Shown here: one piece after another, positions 4,328-21,396 of the stretch
Numbering within the stretch: the stretch's first letter is position 1
How the letters are laid out: each line of letters opens with the position of its first letter
Assembly (NCBI GenBank): GCA_019186845.1
Contig: JABARW010000052.1
Coordinates: 1-37,177 of the forward strand
Direction of reading: 5' to 3'
Source of the DNA: Planctomycetota bacterium
GTDB lineage: Bacteria; Planctomycetota; UBA8742; UBA2392
Length of the DNA: 37,177 bases
The notes under the pieces: model-generated
What the model saw: only the letters and a program-made list of their open reading frames with translations
Database searches by the model: none
Told to the model about the DNA's origin: nothing
Made by a program: the position numbers and the translations under genes

Positions 4328-5392
4328 TCAGGGTCCCTTGCCGCCCCAGGAAATGCCCAGCACGGCGCTTATGGTCACGTCGTGGTGGAAGCGTTTGGGC
4401 GGCGGCAGGTTGTCGTAGACGTCGCGGAAGCTGATGCCGAGGGTGAAGATTTCAAAGGCGCGGATTTCCAGCAGGGCCTCATACAGCGCCGTGACGTTCT
4501 TGAGTTCCTCGAAGTCGAAGTTGACCTCGGCTTTGAGACGCAGGTGCAGGGCGCGCTTTTCGGCCCAGACGTCAATCTCCGTGCCGGCGCGGGCACCGAA
4601 GAATTCGCGGTCTTCCGCCTTCCGGATCAGGTCTTCCACAGTGTAGGTGGCCGCGACCGAGAGGCTCCAGCTGGCGTCAGCTTCGCGCACGGGAAAGTAG
4701 CTCAGGCCCGTGGCTGTCACGCTGCGGTAATGGAAGCCCGCGAACTCGTTGATAAACAGGTCCTGGCTCAGGTCGCAGGTCATGCGAAACGGCGCCAGGT
4801 AGCGGTAGAAGAGGCCCATGCCGTAGTCACGGCGACGCACCTGATCTTCCTCCAGCTTGCGGTCCTGCAGGATGTTGCCCTCGGCGAAGAGCTTGATTTC
4901 GTTCAGCGGCGTGTTGCGCCGCACATCGAAGCGATAGCCCAACGCGAAGTTCTTGGTGTTGCCGTCCGTGTAGCTGACAAAGGCGCGGCCGCTGACACTC
5001 CAGGTGGCCTCGCCCGCGGGCACCGTTTCGTCGATGCCTTTGACCTCGCTCAGGCGGATCTCCCTTTCGCCACTCTCACCCCGCACAACCAGCAGGCCCT
5101 GGCGCGTCGAGAGCGTGACTTCTTCCTGGCCGCGCACGTCAATGCCCAGACGGATGCGAACCTTGCGTGCCGCACCCAGGGCCAGTTCTTCGATGCGTTC
5201 AACGGGCACCTGCACCGTGCCAAGGTCCGTGGTCTGAAAGTGGACCTTGCCGCCTTCGAGCTTCAGGAACTTGCCGCGCAGGAACTCGCCCGAACCCGTG
5301 CGCAGGGTGTCGGCCTTGGCGCCGTCGCCGGCACGCAGGCCGGGCGCAAGAAGCAGGATCAGCAGGAAAAGCAGGCAGGTCGCGGGCTTCAT
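4328..5392 (-). CDS. DUF481 family outer-membrane barrel protein (copy 1)
   Basis: The start at 5392 gives a standard signal peptide (MKPATCLLFLLILLLAPGLRA) and a 354-residue product; a longer frame upstream lacks one. After the signal comes a small N-terminal beta domain of about 90 residues ([18 protein letters not shown]..., an SH3-like fold seen before DUF481 barrels). A C-terminal barrel of alternating strands follows, ending in a C-terminal aromatic/Gly pattern (S-W-G-G). DUF481 proteins are outer-membrane proteins of unclear function, some salt- or stress-induced. A clear paralog with the same two-part layout lies at 6015-7073, on the other side of mscL. Confidence 0.85.
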   Translation of the reverse strand: MKPATCLLFLLILLLAPGLRAGDGAKADTLRTGSGEFLRGKFLKLEGGKVHFQTTDLGTVQVPVERIEELALGAARKVRIRLGIDVRGQEEVTLSTRQGLLVVRGESGEREIRLSEVKGIDETVPAGEATWSVSGRAFVSYTDGNTKNFALGYRFDVRRNTPLNEIKLFAEGNILQDRKLEEDQVRRRDYGMGLFYRYLAPFRMTCDLSQDLFINEFAGFHYRSVTATGLSYFPVREADASWSLSVAATYTVEDLIRKAEDREFFGARAGTEIDVWAEKRALHLRLKAEVNFDFEELKNVTALYEALLEIRAFEIFTLGISFRDVYDNLPPPKRFHHDVTISAVLGISWGGKGP

Positions 5393-5481
5393 GCGGGCGC
5401 GTGGGGTCGGTGGGGTTTGGAGGTGCGTGGTTAAACGGCCCTTGGCGCGCCGAAGGGCAACGATTTCCCAACTTTTGTTCA

Positions 5482-5515
5482 AGCAAAGAGGCCGGCCCCC
5501 GGGGGGGCCGGCCTT
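5482..5515 (-). terminator. Intrinsic terminator after mscL
   Basis: A GC-only hairpin (GGCCGGCCCC with GGGGCCGGCC, about 5490-5513) lies just beyond the mscL stop. Read on the minus strand it is followed by TCTTTGCTT. Confidence 0.7.
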
Positions 5516-6014: not shown

Positions 6015-7073
6015 TTAGTACCAGCGCCCGCCCCAGGAGAATCCCAGGGTGAACAGGAAATTGAAGTCGTGGTGGCGGAAACCCTCAGGCGGGATGTTGT
6101 CCCAGGTGTGACGGAGCAGCATGCCCGCGGTGAAATAGCTGGCGAACTTGTACTCCACGAGCAGCGAGTTGTTCACGACGAGGTTCTTCGTTTCGTCGAA
6201 GTCGAACAGGATTTCGCTGATCAGCTTGATGTGCAGATTATCCTCGAGCTGGAAGGTCTCGAACTCGCCGCGGGCGCGCGCTCCGATGTAGCCGCGGTCT
6301 TCGGCGCCGTTCATCTGGTCTTCATAGGTGTAGGTCAGGTGGGCGCCGACGTGCAGCGTGGTCTTGGGCTGGCGCACGATGAAGTAACCGGGGCCCACGC
6401 CCGTGATGCTGCGCCAGTGGAAGCCCGCCAGCTCGTTGAAGTAGAGGTCTTCCGTGACGTCGATGGTCAGGTTGAAGTCAAAGATGTAGCGGTAGGCGTA
6501 GCCAAAGGCGAAGTCGCGGCGGCGCACCTGGTCTTCATCCAGCAGGCGGTCCTGCAGGTAGTTGCCCTCGCCGTAGAGGATATTCTGGTTGTGCTTGGTC
6601 GTGCGCTTGATGTCAAAGCGGAAACCCATGGAGTAGGTTTCGGTGTTGCCCTCGGTCCAGCCGAAGAAGAAGCGCGCGCTAACGTCCCACTGAGGCCGCT
6701 CATCGGGCACCGCTTCGTTGATACCCTTGAACTTGGAAAGGTCGATCTCGCGCTCGCCTGAGGCATCCTTGAGCACCAGCTTTCCTTCACGCGAGGAGAG
6801 CGTGCCGCTTTCCTGGCGCTGGACGTCATCGCCCGTGCGCCACTTCACCTCGCGCGCCGAGGCCAGGCTGATCTCCTTGATGTCCGCGGGGGCCACCTGC
6901 ACCGTGCCCACCTTGGCGGCTTCGAAGTGGACCTTGCCGCCTTCCAGCTTGACGAACTTGCCAATGAGGACGTCTCCGCCCGTGGTGATCAGCTTGTCTG
7001 CGTCCTGGGCCCCCAGCGCGCCGGCGCAAAGCGCCAGCAGGGCCGACAGCATCACTGTCGCCAGACTCTTCAT
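6015..7073 (-). CDS. DUF481 family outer-membrane barrel protein (copy 2)
   Basis: This 352-residue paralog of the gene at 4328-5392 has a signal peptide ([23 protein letters not shown]), an N-terminal beta domain with the shared [13 protein letters not shown] motif, then a DUF481 barrel ([11 protein letters not shown] onward) ending in G-F-S-W-G-G-R-W-Y. Shared landmarks with copy 1 include [15 protein letters not shown] and N-E-x-A-G-F-H-x-R-S. It ends 19 bp before the mscL start, so it is probably the first gene of an operon with mscL. The gene pair looks like a local duplication that ended up around mscL. Confidence 0.87.
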
Positions 7074-15539: not shown

Positions 15540-15615
15540 GGTCAGGTAGCTCAGTTGGTAGAGCAATGCACTGAAAATGCATGGGTCGCCGGTTCAAGTC
15601 CGGCCCTGACCACCA
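15540..15615 (+). tRNA. tRNA-Phe (anticodon GAA), CCA encoded
   Basis: The full cloverleaf is visible: acceptor GGTCAGG with CCTGACC, D-arm GCTC..GAGC with AGTTGGTA loop, anticodon stem ATGCA/TGCAT around loop CTGAAAA (anticodon GAA at 15573-15575), variable loop, and T-arm GCCGG-TTCAAGT-CCGGC. Discriminator A and genomic CCA follow at 15612-15615. Length is 76 nt. Confidence 0.97.
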
Positions 15616-16050
15616 GCTTCCTAAAGAGTGACCCCGGGCGATCTGCCGGGGTCATTTCGTGAGGTTTTCGTCTCGCTGCGCTCGCCGCCGCCAGGCTTAC
15701 GCCCGGCCTGTGGGCCGGGCTGCTTCGCTGTCTCGCAGCCGCGCAGCGGCTGCTCGAAGTCCGGCCCTGACCACCAGCTTCCTGAAGAGTGACCCCGGGC
15801 GATCTGCCGGGGTCATTTCGTGAGGTGTTCGTCTCGCTGCGCTCGCCGCCGCCAGGCTTACGCCCGGCCTGTGGGCCGGGCTGCTTCGCTGTCTCGCAGC
15901 CGCGCAGCGGCTGCTCGAAGTCCGGCCCTGACCACCAGCTTCCTGAAGAGTGCCCCCGGGCGATCTGCCGGGGTCATTTCGTGAGGTTTTCGTCTCGCTG
16001 CGCTCGCCGCCGCCAGGCTTACGCCCGGCCTGTGGGCCGGGCTGCTTCGC
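15598..16050 (+). repeat. 161-bp tandem repeat starting with the tRNA-Phe 3' end (2.8 copies)
   Basis: Copies run 15598-15758, 15759-15919 and 15920-16050 (the last truncated) and are nearly identical. Each starts with the final 18 nt of the tRNA including CCA. Each full unit then holds three strong hairpins: a terminator-like GACCCCGG/CCGGGGTC followed by ATTT (first at 15630-15656), GCCCGGCC/GGCCGGGC, and GCAGCCGC/GCGGCTGC. Short Arg-rich frames run through the array (for example 15789-16079), but nothing shows they are translated. Confidence 0.9.
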
Positions 16051-17639: not shown

Positions 17640-17670
17640 TTGAACCCGTAGTAAGCTACGGAAGTACTGT
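17640..17670 (+). promoter_or_regulatory. mer-type operator/promoter in front of merR
   Basis: TTGAAC (17640-17645) and TACTGT (17665-17670) have the long 19-bp spacer diagnostic of MerR-activated promoters. The spacer holds a dyad, CCGTAG-TAAG-CTACGG (17646-17661), followed by AAG. This closely follows the Tn501 mer operator, in which a CCGTAC/GTACGG dyad occupies the same place. GGGAGG before the ATG at 17689 is the ribosome-binding site. The regulator would activate its own operon. Confidence 0.85.
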
Positions 17671-17688
17671 TTTCTTGGGAGGTGCCAT

Positions 17689-18132
17689 ATGACCACCATG
17701 ACTGTAGGCAAGCTCGCCGAGTCCACGGGCATCAACATCGAGACCGTGCGCTTTTATGAACGCGAGGGGCTTCTGCCCAAGCCCGAGCGCAGCGCTGGCG
17801 GTCACCGTCTCTATGACGACGACGATGTCGCGCGCCTGCGCTTCATTCAGCGGGCCAAGGACGTCGGCTTTACGCTCAAGGAGATCCAGGACCTGCTGTT
17901 CTTGCGCACCTCCGACCTTGCCACCTGCGGAGATGTCAGTGAGCTTGCGACGCGCAAACTCAACGAAATTACCCACAAGATCGAGCTTTTGACCGAGATG
18001 CGCGAGCACCTCGCGGATCTGATCGAGCGCTGCCCCGGTGGCGACAAGAGCACCCAATGCTGCAGCATCCTGCAGGGTATCGAAGGCGGTTCAGCCAAGG
18101 CCGCCAAAGGCAAGAAAAGGAGTTCGGCGTGA
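17689..18132 (+). CDS. merR: MerR-family regulator, mercury-sensor type
   Basis: The 147-residue protein has a winged helix-turn-helix (residues 4-72; T-V-G-K-L-A-E-S-T-G-I-N-I-E-T-V-R-F-Y-E-R-E-G, then the wing G-G-H-R-L-Y) and a long dimerisation helix. Its cysteines C80, C115 and C124 have spacings of 35 and 9 residues, exactly those of the three Hg(II) ligands of Tn501 MerR (C82, C117, C126). C125 is an extra neighbour. It should bind the 19-bp-spacer promoter in front of it and switch transcription on when Hg(II) binds. A related soft metal is possible. Its stop TGA overlaps the GTG start of the barrel gene (GTGA), giving translational coupling. A basic tail (K-G-K-K-R-S-S-A) ends the protein. 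Confidence 0.93.
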   Translation: MTTMTVGKLAESTGINIETVRFYEREGLLPKPERSAGGHRLYDDDDVARLRFIQRAKDVGFTLKEIQDLLFLRTSDLATCGDVSELATRKLNEITHKIELLTEMREHLADLIERCPGGDKSTQCCSILQGIEGGSAKAAKGKKRSSA

Positions 18133-19016
18133 CACTGAAGCACCTGGCATTGCTGGCACTGGTCTGAGTCCTTGGGGCTGGCGCCGTGAGCGCCCACGAA
18201 ACCATGTTCGGACTGGGACCCAGAACCATCTGGAACAAGGGCCTGGAACTCGAACTCGAACAGGAGTTCGACTGGGCTTTCCGCTATTTCAGCGGAGACA
18301 ACCCCGATTCCAACCCGCGCGACCGCCGCATGTTCATGCACACCATAGAGCCCGGCATCACCTACGGGTTCTCGCGCGACTTCGCCATGCGGGTCAAGAC
18401 GCCCTACTTCTACATGCGCGAACACACCAAGGATGGCAGCGAGGTCTATGCCGGCGCGCGCAAGTTCTCCGTGGCTGGCACGTACCGCTTCCTCAACAAC
18501 GTCTTTGAGGGAGGCTCCACCAAGGCATCGTGGTTTGCCAGCATCGAGTTGCCAACGGCGACTCGGCGCCACGGCAAGCCCATGGGCGACGAGTTTGACG
18601 ACAACTGGACGTTCACGTTTGGCCTCTCAGCCTCCACCAGCACCACGCGCCACTATCTATGGTTTGATCTGGCGGGGCGCGGCAGCACGCAGATTGACGG
18701 CAGCGGCGCGGGCCCCGAGGCTCAGGCCCACCTGGCCTATGCCTATCGCGTGTTCCAGCTGACGGATTACCGCGACTTTGACCTGATTCTGCTGGTGGAG
18801 GCCGACGCGCGCTTTGAGCACCGTGGCCGTATGCACGGTGACCGCGATGACAACAGTGGCGGTTACTTCGTGCATCTGGCGCTTGGCATGCAGATGAACA
18901 TCACCAACCGCATCGAGTGCAAACTGGGGCTGAACCTGCCCGTGTACCGTTACCTGTTCGGCAAGCAGTTCTACCATGAAGGCGAGTTCATGCTGATGTT
19001 CAGCTACCTGATCTGA
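18129..19016 (+). CDS. Outer-membrane beta-barrel protein with in-frame UGA (Sec13) in its signal peptide
   Basis: From the GTG at 18129 (AAAGGAG upstream, overlapping the merR stop) the frame reads VTLKHLALLALV-UGA-VLGAGAVSA-HE. This is a complete signal peptide (basic start, hydrophobic core, A-V-S-A cleavage site) if the UGA at 18165-18167 is translated. The 295-residue product then continues as a barrel (M-F-G-L-G-P-R-T-I-W, alternating strands, C-terminal M-F-S-Y-L-I), like PF13557-type outer-membrane proteins found near metal-efflux genes. Starting at GTG 18186 instead would remove the signal and lacks a ribosome-binding site. A SECIS-like hairpin follows the UGA. If the UGA is selenocysteine, Sec is discarded with the signal peptide, which would make barrel synthesis depend on selenium supply. 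Confidence 0.7.
18165..18194 (+). promoter_or_regulatory. UGA plus SECIS-like hairpin (barrel gene)
   Basis: The UGA is at 18165-18167. A GGCGC/GCGCC stem (18180-18184 with 18190-18194) with loop CGTGA begins its loop 17 nt after the UGA, with G in the second loop position. Confidence 0.5.
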
Positions 19017-19026
19017 GGAGAAGAAC

Positions 19027-19491
19027 ATGACCCGCGGACTCCTGGCGTTGTTGCTGCTGGCCCTGGCGGCCGGCTGCCAGCTCACCAAAGAAGACTTCCA
19101 GCCCGTGCATCTGCGCAAGGGCGGCGGCGAGCCTGCGGCCGTCGACTCCAGGTGCGGCACCCAGCCCGAGCCAAAAGTCGAACCCAAGGCAAAACCCGAG
19201 GCCAAGCCGGAGGTCAAGGAGGTCATATACGCCATCGGCCTCAAAGGCATTGACTGAGGCGGCTGAACCACGGGCGTCGTGGACGCCCTCACCACCCAGT
19301 ATGGGTTGCTGGACAGCTTCACCGTTATCGAGGAATTCACGCTCTTCGTCCTGGCCAAGCCGCAGATCCGGCTCGACGAAAAGACCATCACTGACTTCAT
19401 CTACAAGGATTTCGGCTACGAAGTCTTCAGCTTCAAGGAGGACCTGCAGGGAGACTGGAAGGCGCTCAAAGCGCGATACAAGGTGAAATGA
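19027..19491 (+). CDS. Selenoprotein lipoprotein with UGGU motif, HMA-like domain
   Basis: GGAGAAG precedes the ATG. The product is 154 residues if UGA at 19255-19257 and 19264-19266 are read as Sec77 and Sec80. A lipobox (A-A-G-C17) is followed by a Lys/Pro/Glu spacer (about 45-67). A domain of about 85 residues comes next: V-I-Y-A-I-G-L-K-G-I-D-U-G-G-U-T-T-G-V-V-D-A-L. This lines up with the metal-binding loop and first helix of HMA/MerP domains (G-M-T-C-x-x-C-x-x-x-V-x-x-A-L), with Sec in place of both Cys. The strand-helix pattern continues after the UGAs to a clean TGA stop. It follows the barrel stop by 10 bp, in the same transcript. It is probably an outer-membrane or periplasmic soft-metal binder. 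Confidence 0.85.
19255..19288 (+). promoter_or_regulatory. Paired UGA codons plus SECIS-like hairpin (UGGU gene)
   Basis: A perfect 7-bp stem GGGCGTC/GACGCCC (19272-19278 with 19282-19288) with loop GTG starts 12 nt (to the loop) after the second UGA and 21 nt after the first. This is the best SECIS candidate in the cluster. Confidence 0.7.
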
Positions 19492-19527
19492 CCATTTTGA
19501 TGTAAGGATTAGTCAGGCCCGTTCGTC

Positions 19528-19533
19528 TATAAT
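19528..19533 (+). promoter_or_regulatory. Possible -10 element before the Cys-type HMA gene
   Basis: A consensus TATAAT lies 58 bp before the ATG at 19591, in the 99-bp gap after the UGGU gene. No good -35 at normal spacing is visible, so a second promoter here is possible but unproven. Confidence 0.35.
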
Positions 19534-19590
19534 GGGCTGCGTACAACAAACACGATGGGGCCTCGCCCCGCACTATTGAACGGAGACGAC

Positions 19591-20061
19591 ATGACGAAGT
19601 TCGTGACTGCATTGATGCTGTTCCTCGGCCTGGCTTTCGCCGGCACACCGCTGATGGCCCAGTGCAAGGGCTGTGACAGCTGCGGCGACAAGAAGACCGA
19701 GAAGAAGGAGAGCGAGAAGTGCTGTGAAGAAGAAGGCAAGGGCTGCTGTGACAAGGGCGATGCCAAGGATTGCGGCGGCTGCGGCGAGGTCAAGGCCAAC
19801 AGCTTTGTCGTGACGATTGAGGGCATGACCTGCGTCAAGTGCGCCAAGGCCGTCGAGAAGGCCATTGCCGCCATTGACGGCGTTGAGTCCGTCAAGGTCT
19901 GTGACAAGTCCGGCAAGGCGCTCGTCACCATGAAGGAAGGCAAGACGCTTGACAAGGCCGCCATCGAGACGGCCCTCAAGGAGACGGAGTTCAAGACCAA
20001 GTCCGTCGCCAAGGCCGAGCCCAAGAAGGAAGAGAAGACGGAAGAGAAGTCCAAGGGCTAG
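19591..20061 (+). CDS. Periplasmic HMA (MerP-like) metal-binding protein, cysteine form
   Basis: The 156-residue product has a signal peptide (MTKFVTALMLFLGLAFAGTPLMAQ). A Cys/Lys-rich segment follows (C-K-G-C-D-S-C-G, E-K-C-C-E-E-E, G-C-C, C-G-G-C) with about ten cysteines, able to bind several soft metal ions. Then comes a full HMA domain with the canonical G-M-T-C-V-K-C-A-K-A-V motif and the A-I-D-G-V-E-S-V strand, and finally a Lys/Glu tail. The HMA part aligns closely with the next gene, where the two Cys codons are UGA; it is the Cys reference that makes the Sec reading convincing. GGAG precedes the ATG, and a strong terminator follows. Confidence 0.92.
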   Translation: MTKFVTALMLFLGLAFAGTPLMAQCKGCDSCGDKKTEKKESEKCCEEEGKGCCDKGDAKDCGGCGEVKANSFVVTIEGMTCVKCAKAVEKAIAAIDGVESVKVCDKSGKALVTMKEGKTLDKAAIETALKETEFKTKSVAKAEPKKEEKTEEKSKG

Positions 20062-20083
20062 TCTTTGGCGCCCGCAATTCAGG

Positions 20084-20114
20084 GGGAGCGGCCTGCGCCG
20101 CTCCCTCTTTTTTT
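20084..20114 (+). terminator. Intrinsic terminator after the Cys-type HMA gene
   Basis: A 9-bp stem GGGAGCGGC/GCCGCTCCC (20084-20092 with 20097-20105, loop CTGC) is followed by TCTTTTTTTT. The next gene therefore probably has its own promoter or depends on read-through. Confidence 0.88.
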
Positions 20115-20186
20115 ACGGAATGTTAGGCTGCCCCGCGTAGTTCCATATGGAAGGGTTGTTTCCATTTCTCTTACAGGAGGATGCAC

Positions 20187-20606
20187 ATGCGTCAGATGGG
20201 ATTCATCGCTGCCGCGCTCCTGCTCTCAGTCAGTGTGGCGGGCGCGGCCTGCCAGGCACAAGAGAGCAAGGGCGAAGAAAAGAAGGCCGAGCAGCCGGCC
20301 AAGGTCGCACCCACGGTTTACAAGGTTGGCATCGACGGCGCGACGTGAGCGACGTGAGGACCCGCGGTCGTCAAGACCCTCTCCAGCCTGGAAGGCGTGG
20401 AAAAAGCAACGTGGGACAAGAAGAAGCAGGAAGCCACCGTCACGATGAAGGAAGGCAAGACGATTGAGAAGGATGCAGTCGTCAAGGCCTTCGAGGACAG
20501 CAGGTTCAGCGTCCGCTCTTTCGCCAAGGAGGGCGAAGAGACCAAGGAAGAAAAGAAGGAAGAGAAGAAGGACGGAACTGACGGAAACAAGGGCTCCGGC
20601 AAGTAG
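20187..20606 (+). CDS. HMA (MerP-like) selenoprotein with UATU replacing the CxxC metal site
   Basis: A strong AGGAGG precedes the ATG. The frame reads a signal peptide (MRQMGFIAAALLLSVSVAGAA), a Lys/Glu spacer, then Y-K-V-G-I-D-G-A-T-U54-A-T-U57-G-P-A-V-V-K-T-L and the rest of an HMA fold (L-E-G-V-E-K-A, V-T-M-K-E-G-K-T-I), ending in a Lys/Glu tail; 139 residues. It parallels the preceding Cys protein position by position (G-M-T-C-V-K-C against G-A-T-U-A-T-U; both share V-T-M-K-E-G-K-T). UGA at 20346-20348 and 20355-20357 therefore fall exactly on the two metal-binding Cys. Selenolate pairs would bind Hg(II) even more tightly than thiolates. A standard gene call would give only a truncated piece from GTG 20397. 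Confidence 0.9.
20346..20378 (+). promoter_or_regulatory. Paired UGA codons plus SECIS-like hairpin (UATU gene)
   Basis: A GGTC/GACC stem (20366-20369 with 20375-20378) with loop GTCAA starts its loop 12 nt after the second UGA and 21 nt after the first. This is the same geometry as in the UGGU gene. Outer GAG/CTC bases can extend it across a bulge. Confidence 0.5.
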
Positions 20607-20627
20607 CATCCTCCGCCGCAAATCGAG

Positions 20628-20656
20628 AACCGGGCGACGCCAGTCGCCCGGTTTTC
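20628..20656 (+). terminator. Intrinsic terminator after the UATU gene
   Basis: A perfect 11-bp stem (20628-20638 with 20643-20653, loop GCCA) is followed by TTCT. The next gene starts only 12 bp further on. Confidence 0.85.
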
Positions 20657-20667
20657 TATGTTATGGC

Positions 20668-20979
20668 ATGCGCGTGATGCTGCTTACAGCCCTGCTGCTG
20701 CTCACCGCCTGCGCGGCTCCGCCAAGACCACAAGCGCCCCCGGCCCGGGACTATCTCGCCTGGCTCGAATACGGGCAATGAGGCGAAGACTGACCCGGTT
20801 TCGATCTGATGATCGCGCGCCTGGATGGCGTCCAAAACGTATACGAAGATCCCCAGGGCGAGTTTCACATCACCTGGCGCGGCAGCGATGATGCTTTGCG
20901 CGCCGCGCTCGAGAGGCTGGCCCGCGAGCAGGGGGCCACGCTGCGCCAATTGAGCCCCTTGGCGCTGGCCGGTCCCTGA
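20668..20979 (+). CDS. Small selenoprotein lipoprotein with UGEDU motif, HMA-like domain
   Basis: The 103-residue frame reads through UGA at 20779-20781 (Sec38) and 20791-20793 (Sec42). It starts with a lipoprotein signal (lipobox L-T-A-C15), a Pro-rich spacer and D-Y-L-A-W-L-E-Y-G-Q-U-G-E-D-U-P-G-F. What follows (M-I-A-R-L-D-G-V-Q-N-V, E-F-H-I-T-W, A-L-E-R-L-A-R-E-Q-G-A) matches the helix-strand-strand-helix order of HMA domains, including the L-x-G-V-x-x-V signature. The Sec pair has three residues between instead of two, a variation on the usual CxxC. No Shine-Dalgarno is seen before ATG 20668 or 20677, and a terminator lies just upstream, so how it is expressed is unclear. Confidence 0.72.
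20779..20815 (+). promoter_or_regulatory. Paired UGA codons plus SECIS-like hairpin (UGEDU gene)
   Basis: A CGATC/GATCG stem (20802-20806 with 20811-20815) with loop TGAT begins its loop 13 nt after the second UGA. G is in the second loop position. Confidence 0.5.
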
Positions 20980-21036
20980 ATTGGCGGAACCTCGACAGGC
21001 CCGGCGGCGTCCCAGTTCGGGCCTGAGGAGAACGCC

Positions 21037-21396
21037 ATGAACAGGATGCTCACGCTGGTTTTGCTCACCACCATGTCCTGCGGCGTGCTGACGGCCGCGC
21101 CCCTGGCTCCAACGGCCGCGAAACCCGACTTTCTGTGAGCGGGCTGAGGGCCCCGCAACCTGCCCGTGAAGGCAGCGAAGTATGAAGCCTCTGTCAGTGG
21201 AGTGAAAGACGCCGAAGGAGCCGCCGCGCTCAGGAAGCTTGTGCTCGCGCTCGACGGTGTGGCCGAAGTGAGCGTGGACGAGAAGAACCAGACACTGACC
21301 ATCATCATGAAGGCAGGCAGCGAACTGAGCGAAGAGACGCTCTGCGCCGCGCTGAAAGATCAGCCCTACAGCTGCACGAAGTTCAAGCGGGCCTGA
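21037..21396 (+). CDS. Exported selenoprotein with UAGU motif ahead of a Cys-less HMA-like domain
   Basis: GAGGAG lies before the ATG. The 119-residue frame reads through UGA at 21136-21138 (Sec34) and 21145-21147 (Sec37). It has a signal sequence (MNRMLTLVLLTTMSCGVLTAAPLA; a lipobox at C15 is possible but weak), then D-F-L-U-A-G-U-G-P, then a domain of about 75 residues with HMA order (Y-E-A-S-V-S-G-V-K-D-A-E-G, L-D-G-V-A-E-V-S-V, L-T-I-I-M-K). Where HMA proteins have C-x-x-C this domain has D-A-E-G. The metal site therefore appears lost from the loop and replaced by a Sec pair about 15 residues before the domain. Two Cys near the C-terminus (about 103 and 113) could assist. It ends the cluster; surE is convergent 17 bp away. 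Confidence 0.78.
21136..21175 (+). promoter_or_regulatory. Paired UGA codons plus SECIS-like hairpin (UAGU gene)
   Basis: A CTGCC/GGCAG stem (21160-21164 with 21171-21175) with loop CGTGAA begins its loop 17 nt after the second UGA. Distance and loop sequence match the barrel-gene hairpin. Confidence 0.55.

Follow-up and report, generated by a model that had tools for sequence, protein, structure and literature searches.

A MerR-headed cluster of predicted selenoproteins in a planctomycete, with an in-frame UGA in the signal peptide of a putative outer-membrane barrel

Gene content of the cluster

The genetic context of a merR gene was examined in the draft genome of a Planctomycetota bacterium (GenBank assembly GCA_019186845.1), a 3.74-Mb metagenome-assembled genome (MAG) that is 87.65% complete, and five of the six genes downstream (A to F, all on the forward strand) were found to have reading frames broken solely by in-frame TGA, nine in total. 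The sequence analysed, referred to as the window, is the whole 37,177-nucleotide contig C33 of this genome (accession number JABARW010000052.1). An earlier note, made from the window sequence alone, had taken the cluster to be a MerR-controlled set of exported selenoproteins that likely bind mercury through selenocysteine (Sec, U). Its count of five such exported-protein genes and nine UGA codons, paired in four of the five genes, was confirmed by translation, and the single Cys-type HMA gene it had listed is gene C.

The cluster begins with a mer-type promoter/operator (17640–17670) made up of TTGAAC (17640–17645), a 19-nt spacer (CCGTAGTAAGCTACGGAAG) and TACTGT (17665–17670), followed by merR (17689–18132), which encodes a MerR-family regulator (Pfam MerR_1, 82.9 bits) with three Cys and a C-x8-C arrangement at the C-terminus. 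Gene A (18129–19016) encodes a predicted outer-membrane beta-barrel, and its only UGA is codon 13 (18165–18167), located in the signal peptide. Gene B (19027–19491) encodes a predicted lipoprotein with an HMA-like domain and the motif UGGU (UGA at 19255–19257 and 19264–19266). Gene C (19591–20061) encodes an exported HMA protein with the motif GMTCVKC and no UGA, and is followed by a terminator-like hairpin (20081–20115; hairpin 20081–20108, then a T-run; folding z −5.5). The exported HMA protein encoded by gene D (20187–20606) includes UATU (UGA at 20346–20348 and 20355–20357), and a further terminator-like hairpin (20625–20656; folding z −8.0) lies behind this gene. Gene E (20668–20979) encodes a predicted lipoprotein with UGEDU (UGA at 20779–20781 and 20791–20793). 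In the exported product of gene F (21037–21396), UAGU (UGA at 21136–21138 and 21145–21147) is N-terminal to an HMA-like domain that has no CxxC of its own.

All nine TGA codons are also present in the near relative L036, the barrel of which is 96% identical. Substitutions between the two loci at codon positions 1/2/3 numbered 8/3/56 after the UGA of A, and, before and after the UGA pair respectively, 8/5/16 and 3/1/11 in B, 1/2/4 and 0/1/7 in D, 7/3/10 and 6/7/14 in E, and 8/5/8 and 8/8/25 in F. With this third-position bias, A, B and D show clearly that coding continues past their UGAs; for E and the start of F the signal is weaker.

Conservation of the cluster in related genomes

The barrel was searched for in 99 genomes, and 23 matches were found, including 15 of the 17 genomes of the same genus, family and order, the cluster's own genome being counted; the two in which it was not found are G006 and G011. 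Gene B was located within ~100 bases 3' of the barrel in these 15 genomes, with the motif UGGU, UGQU or UGEU, so that both of its UGAs are kept in 15 of 15. When 392 genomes of the phylum were searched with B, 123 matched, and the best 16 (the same 15 and G020, to an E-value of 1.4e-19) all have two TGA and no other internal stop; below these lie different stretches of HMA type, which carry no TGA, a single one or, in rare cases, some other stop. A protein-database search, in which the best 7995 candidates were scored, gave 12 matches of B, all of them halves of 65–88 residues: nine stop directly before the first UGA and three are located behind the second. Database gene models cut these proteins at UGA, and the proteins are hidden as a result. 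No Cys form of B was present among the best candidates in either the genome or the protein-database search, and tblastn of B against plasmids gave no match. As B was found solely in the Sec form, sulfur may not serve its task.

The first Cys of the HMA CxxC in the third gene is replaced by UGA (UxxC) in L043, L046, L048 and L049, and is Cys in L039, L040, L041, L044, L045 and L047. Four loci, the window, L036, L037 and L038, have a recognisable D, and its motif is UAGU in L037 and UGMU in L038. E was recognised solely in the window, L036 and L037, and its UGA pair is kept in the latter two. The motif of F is UAGU in the window, URGU in L037 and CACC in L038.

Additional genes of this kind were seen near two of the barrels. 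L037 (G001) has an extra exported HMA-like gene on the minus strand at ~6519, with UGIKU and therefore UxxxU spacing, and a distant barrel neighbour in L051 (G039, another planctomycete family; minus strand, ~6462–6780 and 7272) carries two UxxU motifs, one of which is in frame with a thioredoxin-like CAPC stretch.

Selenocysteine machinery and SECIS-like hairpins

SelA, SelB, SelD and tRNA-Sec were all found in the genome carrying the cluster, with tRNA-Sec near SelA, and SelA was found in 19 of 19 genomes examined. UGA also serves as the stop codon of genes A and B. The selD gene of this genome (L013; G000:C2:96966–97889) has an in-frame TGA, and SelD is itself likely to be a selenoprotein. 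A second match above the tRNA-Sec cut-off (L003; G000:C58:561–650; 51.2 bits) may be another long-arm tRNA.

Two hairpins resembling a Sec insertion sequence (SECIS) were located 3' of the UGA pair of B (19272–19308; hairpins 19272–19288 and 19292–19308), and compensatory changes were examined in 17 sequences, 15 of them distinct and including L050 and L051. Pairing was found in 92.8% of cells compared with 82.5% in shuffles, double changes in 17 cells compared with 4.5 (0 of 500 shuffles as high), and pairs with a double change numbered 5 compared with 2.9 (17 of 500 as high), while sliding the hairpins out of register left at most 53.8% paired. In this alignment the two hairpins covary. The loop of the second is GGUC in 7 of 17 relatives, which resembles the E. 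coli SECIS loop, and each UGA of B may have its own hairpin.

A mid-p below 0.1 against synonymous codon shuffles was obtained for hairpins at 14 of 17 B, 5 of 5 D-type, 3 of 3 E and 3 of 3 F sites and at one more L051 site, compared with 10.7% of 383 control sites in mature barrels, for which fewer shuffles were made; the sites are related, and these counts are therefore not independent. The test counted here was the form without a G-in-loop rule and with control sites, chosen after many B loops were seen to begin with A. Under that rule no hairpin was found for A_L039, B_L039, B_L041, B_L046, B_L047 and D2_L037, and p-values were higher for many others. The candidate hairpin of A (GGCGC-CGUGA-GCGCC; 18180–18194), 12 nt 3' of its UGA, has a mid-p of 0.38 alone, which is not significant. 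An Rfam scan of the window at gathering thresholds identified only tRNA.

As Sec machinery is present, UGA and Cys exchange in relatives and the hairpins of B covary, the UGA-interrupted genes are predicted to encode selenoproteins. The earlier note had proposed that Sec machinery, Cys at the UGA sites of relatives and SECIS elements be sought. The machinery proved to be complete; Cys was seen at UGA sites of the third gene, F and the barrel (two proteins) though, among the best candidates, not of B; and the hairpin evidence includes covariation for B, is suggestive for D, E and F, and is weak for the barrel.

The predicted metal-binding proteins

C (40.9 bits), D (31.1 bits) and F (24.9 bits) match Pfam HMA (PF00403; cut-off 24.8), F by a margin of 0.1 bit, and neither B nor E has a Pfam match. 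By profile comparison B aligns with C and D (98.2% probability) and E is weakly HMA-like (30%). The B model has a beta-alpha-beta-beta-alpha-beta domain (pLDDT ~95 in the domain and 78.4 overall) whose first helix begins at the Sec pair, and is nearest to the Atx1, CopA and HMA7 domains, with a best Foldseek E-value of 1.7e-3 and none below 0.001.

MerR and its operator

The exact dyad CCGTA-N6-TACGG (CCGTAGTAAGCTACGG) occurs once in the window, within the 19-nt spacer, and the published Pmer site CCGTACATGAGTACGG has the same form (PMC11049809). The mer-type promoter with a 19-bp spacer described in the earlier note is thereby upheld. Of the 15 barrel genes, all but those in L042 and L044 have a merR gene immediately 5' of them, and 7 of these 13 merR genes are preceded by the exact dyad. 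All 13 aligned MerR proteins have the three Cys at the ligand places (L038 is cut at the N-terminus). According to PMC3431237, Cys at the first of these places is essential in all divalent-metal MerR regulators tested.

The reported absence of merA and merT held for the 17 genomes of the genus, family and order, none of which has MerT or a MerA match over the cut-off. MerT is present in G020 and G039, and MerA did not exceed the cut-off in any of 19 genomes, all of which have weaker flavoprotein matches. A soft divalent metal as the target is well supported, and mercury is somewhat more probable than not.

The barrel and its signal-peptide UGA

The model of A is a beta-barrel (pLDDT 83.6), nearest to the COG4313 channel 4rl8 (TMq 0.70) and FapF 5o65 (TMq 0.66). 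A UGA lies behind the start codon and ahead of the predicted cleavage site of the barrel in 12 of the 15 genomes: nine have it at codon 7, L042 at codon 6, and the window and L036 at codon 13. In the barrel tree the UGA-7 forms are widespread and the UGA-less ones scattered. A Sec at this position would be cleaved off with the signal peptide and so could not bind metal in the mature protein; the earlier note's reading of the exported selenoproteins as a selenium-based metal-binding system therefore does not hold for the barrel, the UGA of which looks regulatory.

A count of stop-cut signal peptides gave 0 with TGA, 2 with TAG and 0 with TAA for a 381,168-bp part of the same genome, and 10 with TGA, 1 with TAG and 0 with TAA for the 15 cluster loci (207,443 bp), where the 10 TGA-cut ones correspond to 9 of the 11 UGA barrels there and one other gene. 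In the window the scan identified the barrel alone. Among 21 database barrels, a complete signal peptide lacking UGA is present in 7; another 12 entries start within the signal peptide or behind it, and 2 start far into the protein. The 12 shortened entries are what would be expected if gene calling had been halted by a UGA further upstream; contig ends or the choice of start codon could have the same effect.

Interpretation and alternative explanations

Taken jointly, these data suggest that Sec pairs in the cell envelope trap a soft metal, probably Hg(II), and that they are accompanied by a barrel made only when selenium is available, a reading from sequence comparison to which a probability of roughly 55% was assigned. 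Metal bound to MerR, probably Hg(II) rather than another divalent metal, would open the operator. The barrel may provide a route for the metal or its carrier across the outer membrane, and the metal would be bound by the Sec pairs of B and the partner proteins, either lipid-anchored or soluble in the periplasm. Under selenium shortage the UGA near the barrel start would halt barrel synthesis, tying the channel to the supply of Sec-tRNA.

Nine stops across five short genes would normally suggest decay, but decayed genes, sequencing error or an altered code have next to no probability here. Pseudogenes and sequencing error were ruled out by the conservation of identical UGAs in further MAGs and by the third-position substitution pattern, to which the lack of any internal stop other than TGA in the 16 best B matches can be added; an altered code was ruled out as UGA terminates A and B and the Sec machinery is complete. 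The barrel UGA is kept, gene-specific and variable in position. The best fit is a regulatory gate, and we tentatively propose, at slightly less than even odds, that this UGA is a selenium checkpoint kept for its decoding and not for the residue, so that the channel is made only alongside its Sec-pair partners. Several observations count against this proposal or other parts of the joint reading. The barrel UGA hairpin has a mid-p below 0.1 at only 5 of 12 sites, single-sequence folding of the window UGA contexts was no better than in shuffles (z −1.1 to +0.3), and 3 of the 15 genomes (L037, L038 and L043), together with the distant L050, have a barrel without UGA. Two UGA-less barrels (P0033 and P0035) have Cys at codon 7, a classic Sec/Cys exchange that would also fit a working selenol, either a signal-peptide Sec that senses metal or redox state or a peptide that stays uncut. 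This main rival to the gate is nevertheless unlikely, given that the UGA varies between codons 6, 7 and 13, that Cys is a single base change from UGA, and that the other UGA-less barrels carry Met (P0036), Phe (P0025), Gly (L043), Ala (L037), Ile (L038) or Leu (L050) at codon 7. The weak barrel hairpin, and database gene models that begin after the UGA, would also be expected if the UGA were a plain stop or attenuator, with the barrel starting downstream or made by leaky read-through. We regard this as quite improbable, as none of the in-frame ATG, GTG or TTG codons 3' of the UGA would yield a Lys- or Arg-containing signal peptide, and in L045 there is no start codon at all between the UGA and the mature protein. 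Moreover, a ribosome-site-like tetramer accompanies the first start in at least 10 of 12, and the frame ahead of the UGA reads as the start of a signal peptide.

The identity of the metal and the reach of MerR are the other parts of the joint reading on which evidence is divided. The C-x8-C arrangement described in the earlier note as the exact Hg-ligand spacing is present in the window but is not kept in the family, where the spacing is x8 in 3, x9 in 1 and x7 in 9 of the 13 aligned proteins. MerR scored 130.5 bits against the mercury-MerR model TIGR02051, below its cut-off of 150.85 and level with a Zn-responsive model (130.1 bits, also below cut-off), CadR (88.8 bits) and Tn501 MerR (86.8 bits) are level, and the fold neighbours of the HMA domains are mostly copper chaperone and ATPase domains. 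The same selenoprotein system could therefore serve another metal (Cd, Pb, Zn or Cu) or redox work. This is somewhat unlikely, however, as the operator dyad has the mercury form, the best solved MerR relative (101.6 bits) is 4ua1, a Bacillus mercury MerR, and the benefit of selenolate binding is greatest for Hg(II). For the mercury assignment of the earlier note, the mer-type operator and the three Cys of MerR thus stand, whereas the family-model scores do not discriminate. Its claim of a MerR-controlled cluster stands in that operator and merR head the genes, but the terminator-like hairpins after C and D leave MerR control of D to F unsettled and suggest that D and E–F have their own promoters.

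Among the best matches per query in the open-access literature, neither a bacterial signal peptide with a Sec codon nor a Sec-rich mer-like cluster was found to be reported. Selenoproteins of other Planctomycetes have been described (PMC4807772), in the text of which the terms "signal peptide" and "mercury" are absent. The use of Sec is usually explained by residue chemistry; the signal-peptide UGA, if the proposal is true, would make Sec decoding itself the signal. In addition, the cluster makes it possible to test whether selenolate pairs bind metal at the envelope.

Elsewhere in the window, a tandem array (15596–16050; 161-bp unit, 2.8 copies, 98% alike) was found with tRNA-Phe (15540–15615) just ahead of it, and two adjacent DUF481 proteins are encoded on the minus strand (4328–5482 and 6015–7073).

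Comparison with known systems

The hairpins of B, like the fdhF-type SECIS of E. coli, lie close behind the UGA, but B has two of them behind a UGA pair, the first with a 3-nt loop. The barrel shares its predicted fold with the COG4313 outer-membrane channel (4rl8) and FapF (5o65), but its identity to them is 8–14%, it belongs to no Pfam family and it has a UGA in the signal peptide. Features in common with the mer operon are a MerR with three Cys, a mer-type operator with a 19-nt spacer and a MerP-like fold. However, the cluster differs in the lack of MerT (17 genomes) and of MerA over the cut-off (19 genomes), and in the replacement of Cys by Sec pairs. PMC13188914, PMC2398784 and NCBIfam (NF041115 and NF045683) list families of Sec-containing MerP/MerT-like and UxxU metal-binding proteins, and the proteins described here resemble them in having a small HMA-type domain with Sec at the CxxC. 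C (36.6 bits) and D (34.5 bits) are nevertheless below the NF041115 cut-off of 95, and several such proteins are encoded here in one cluster together with MerR and a barrel.

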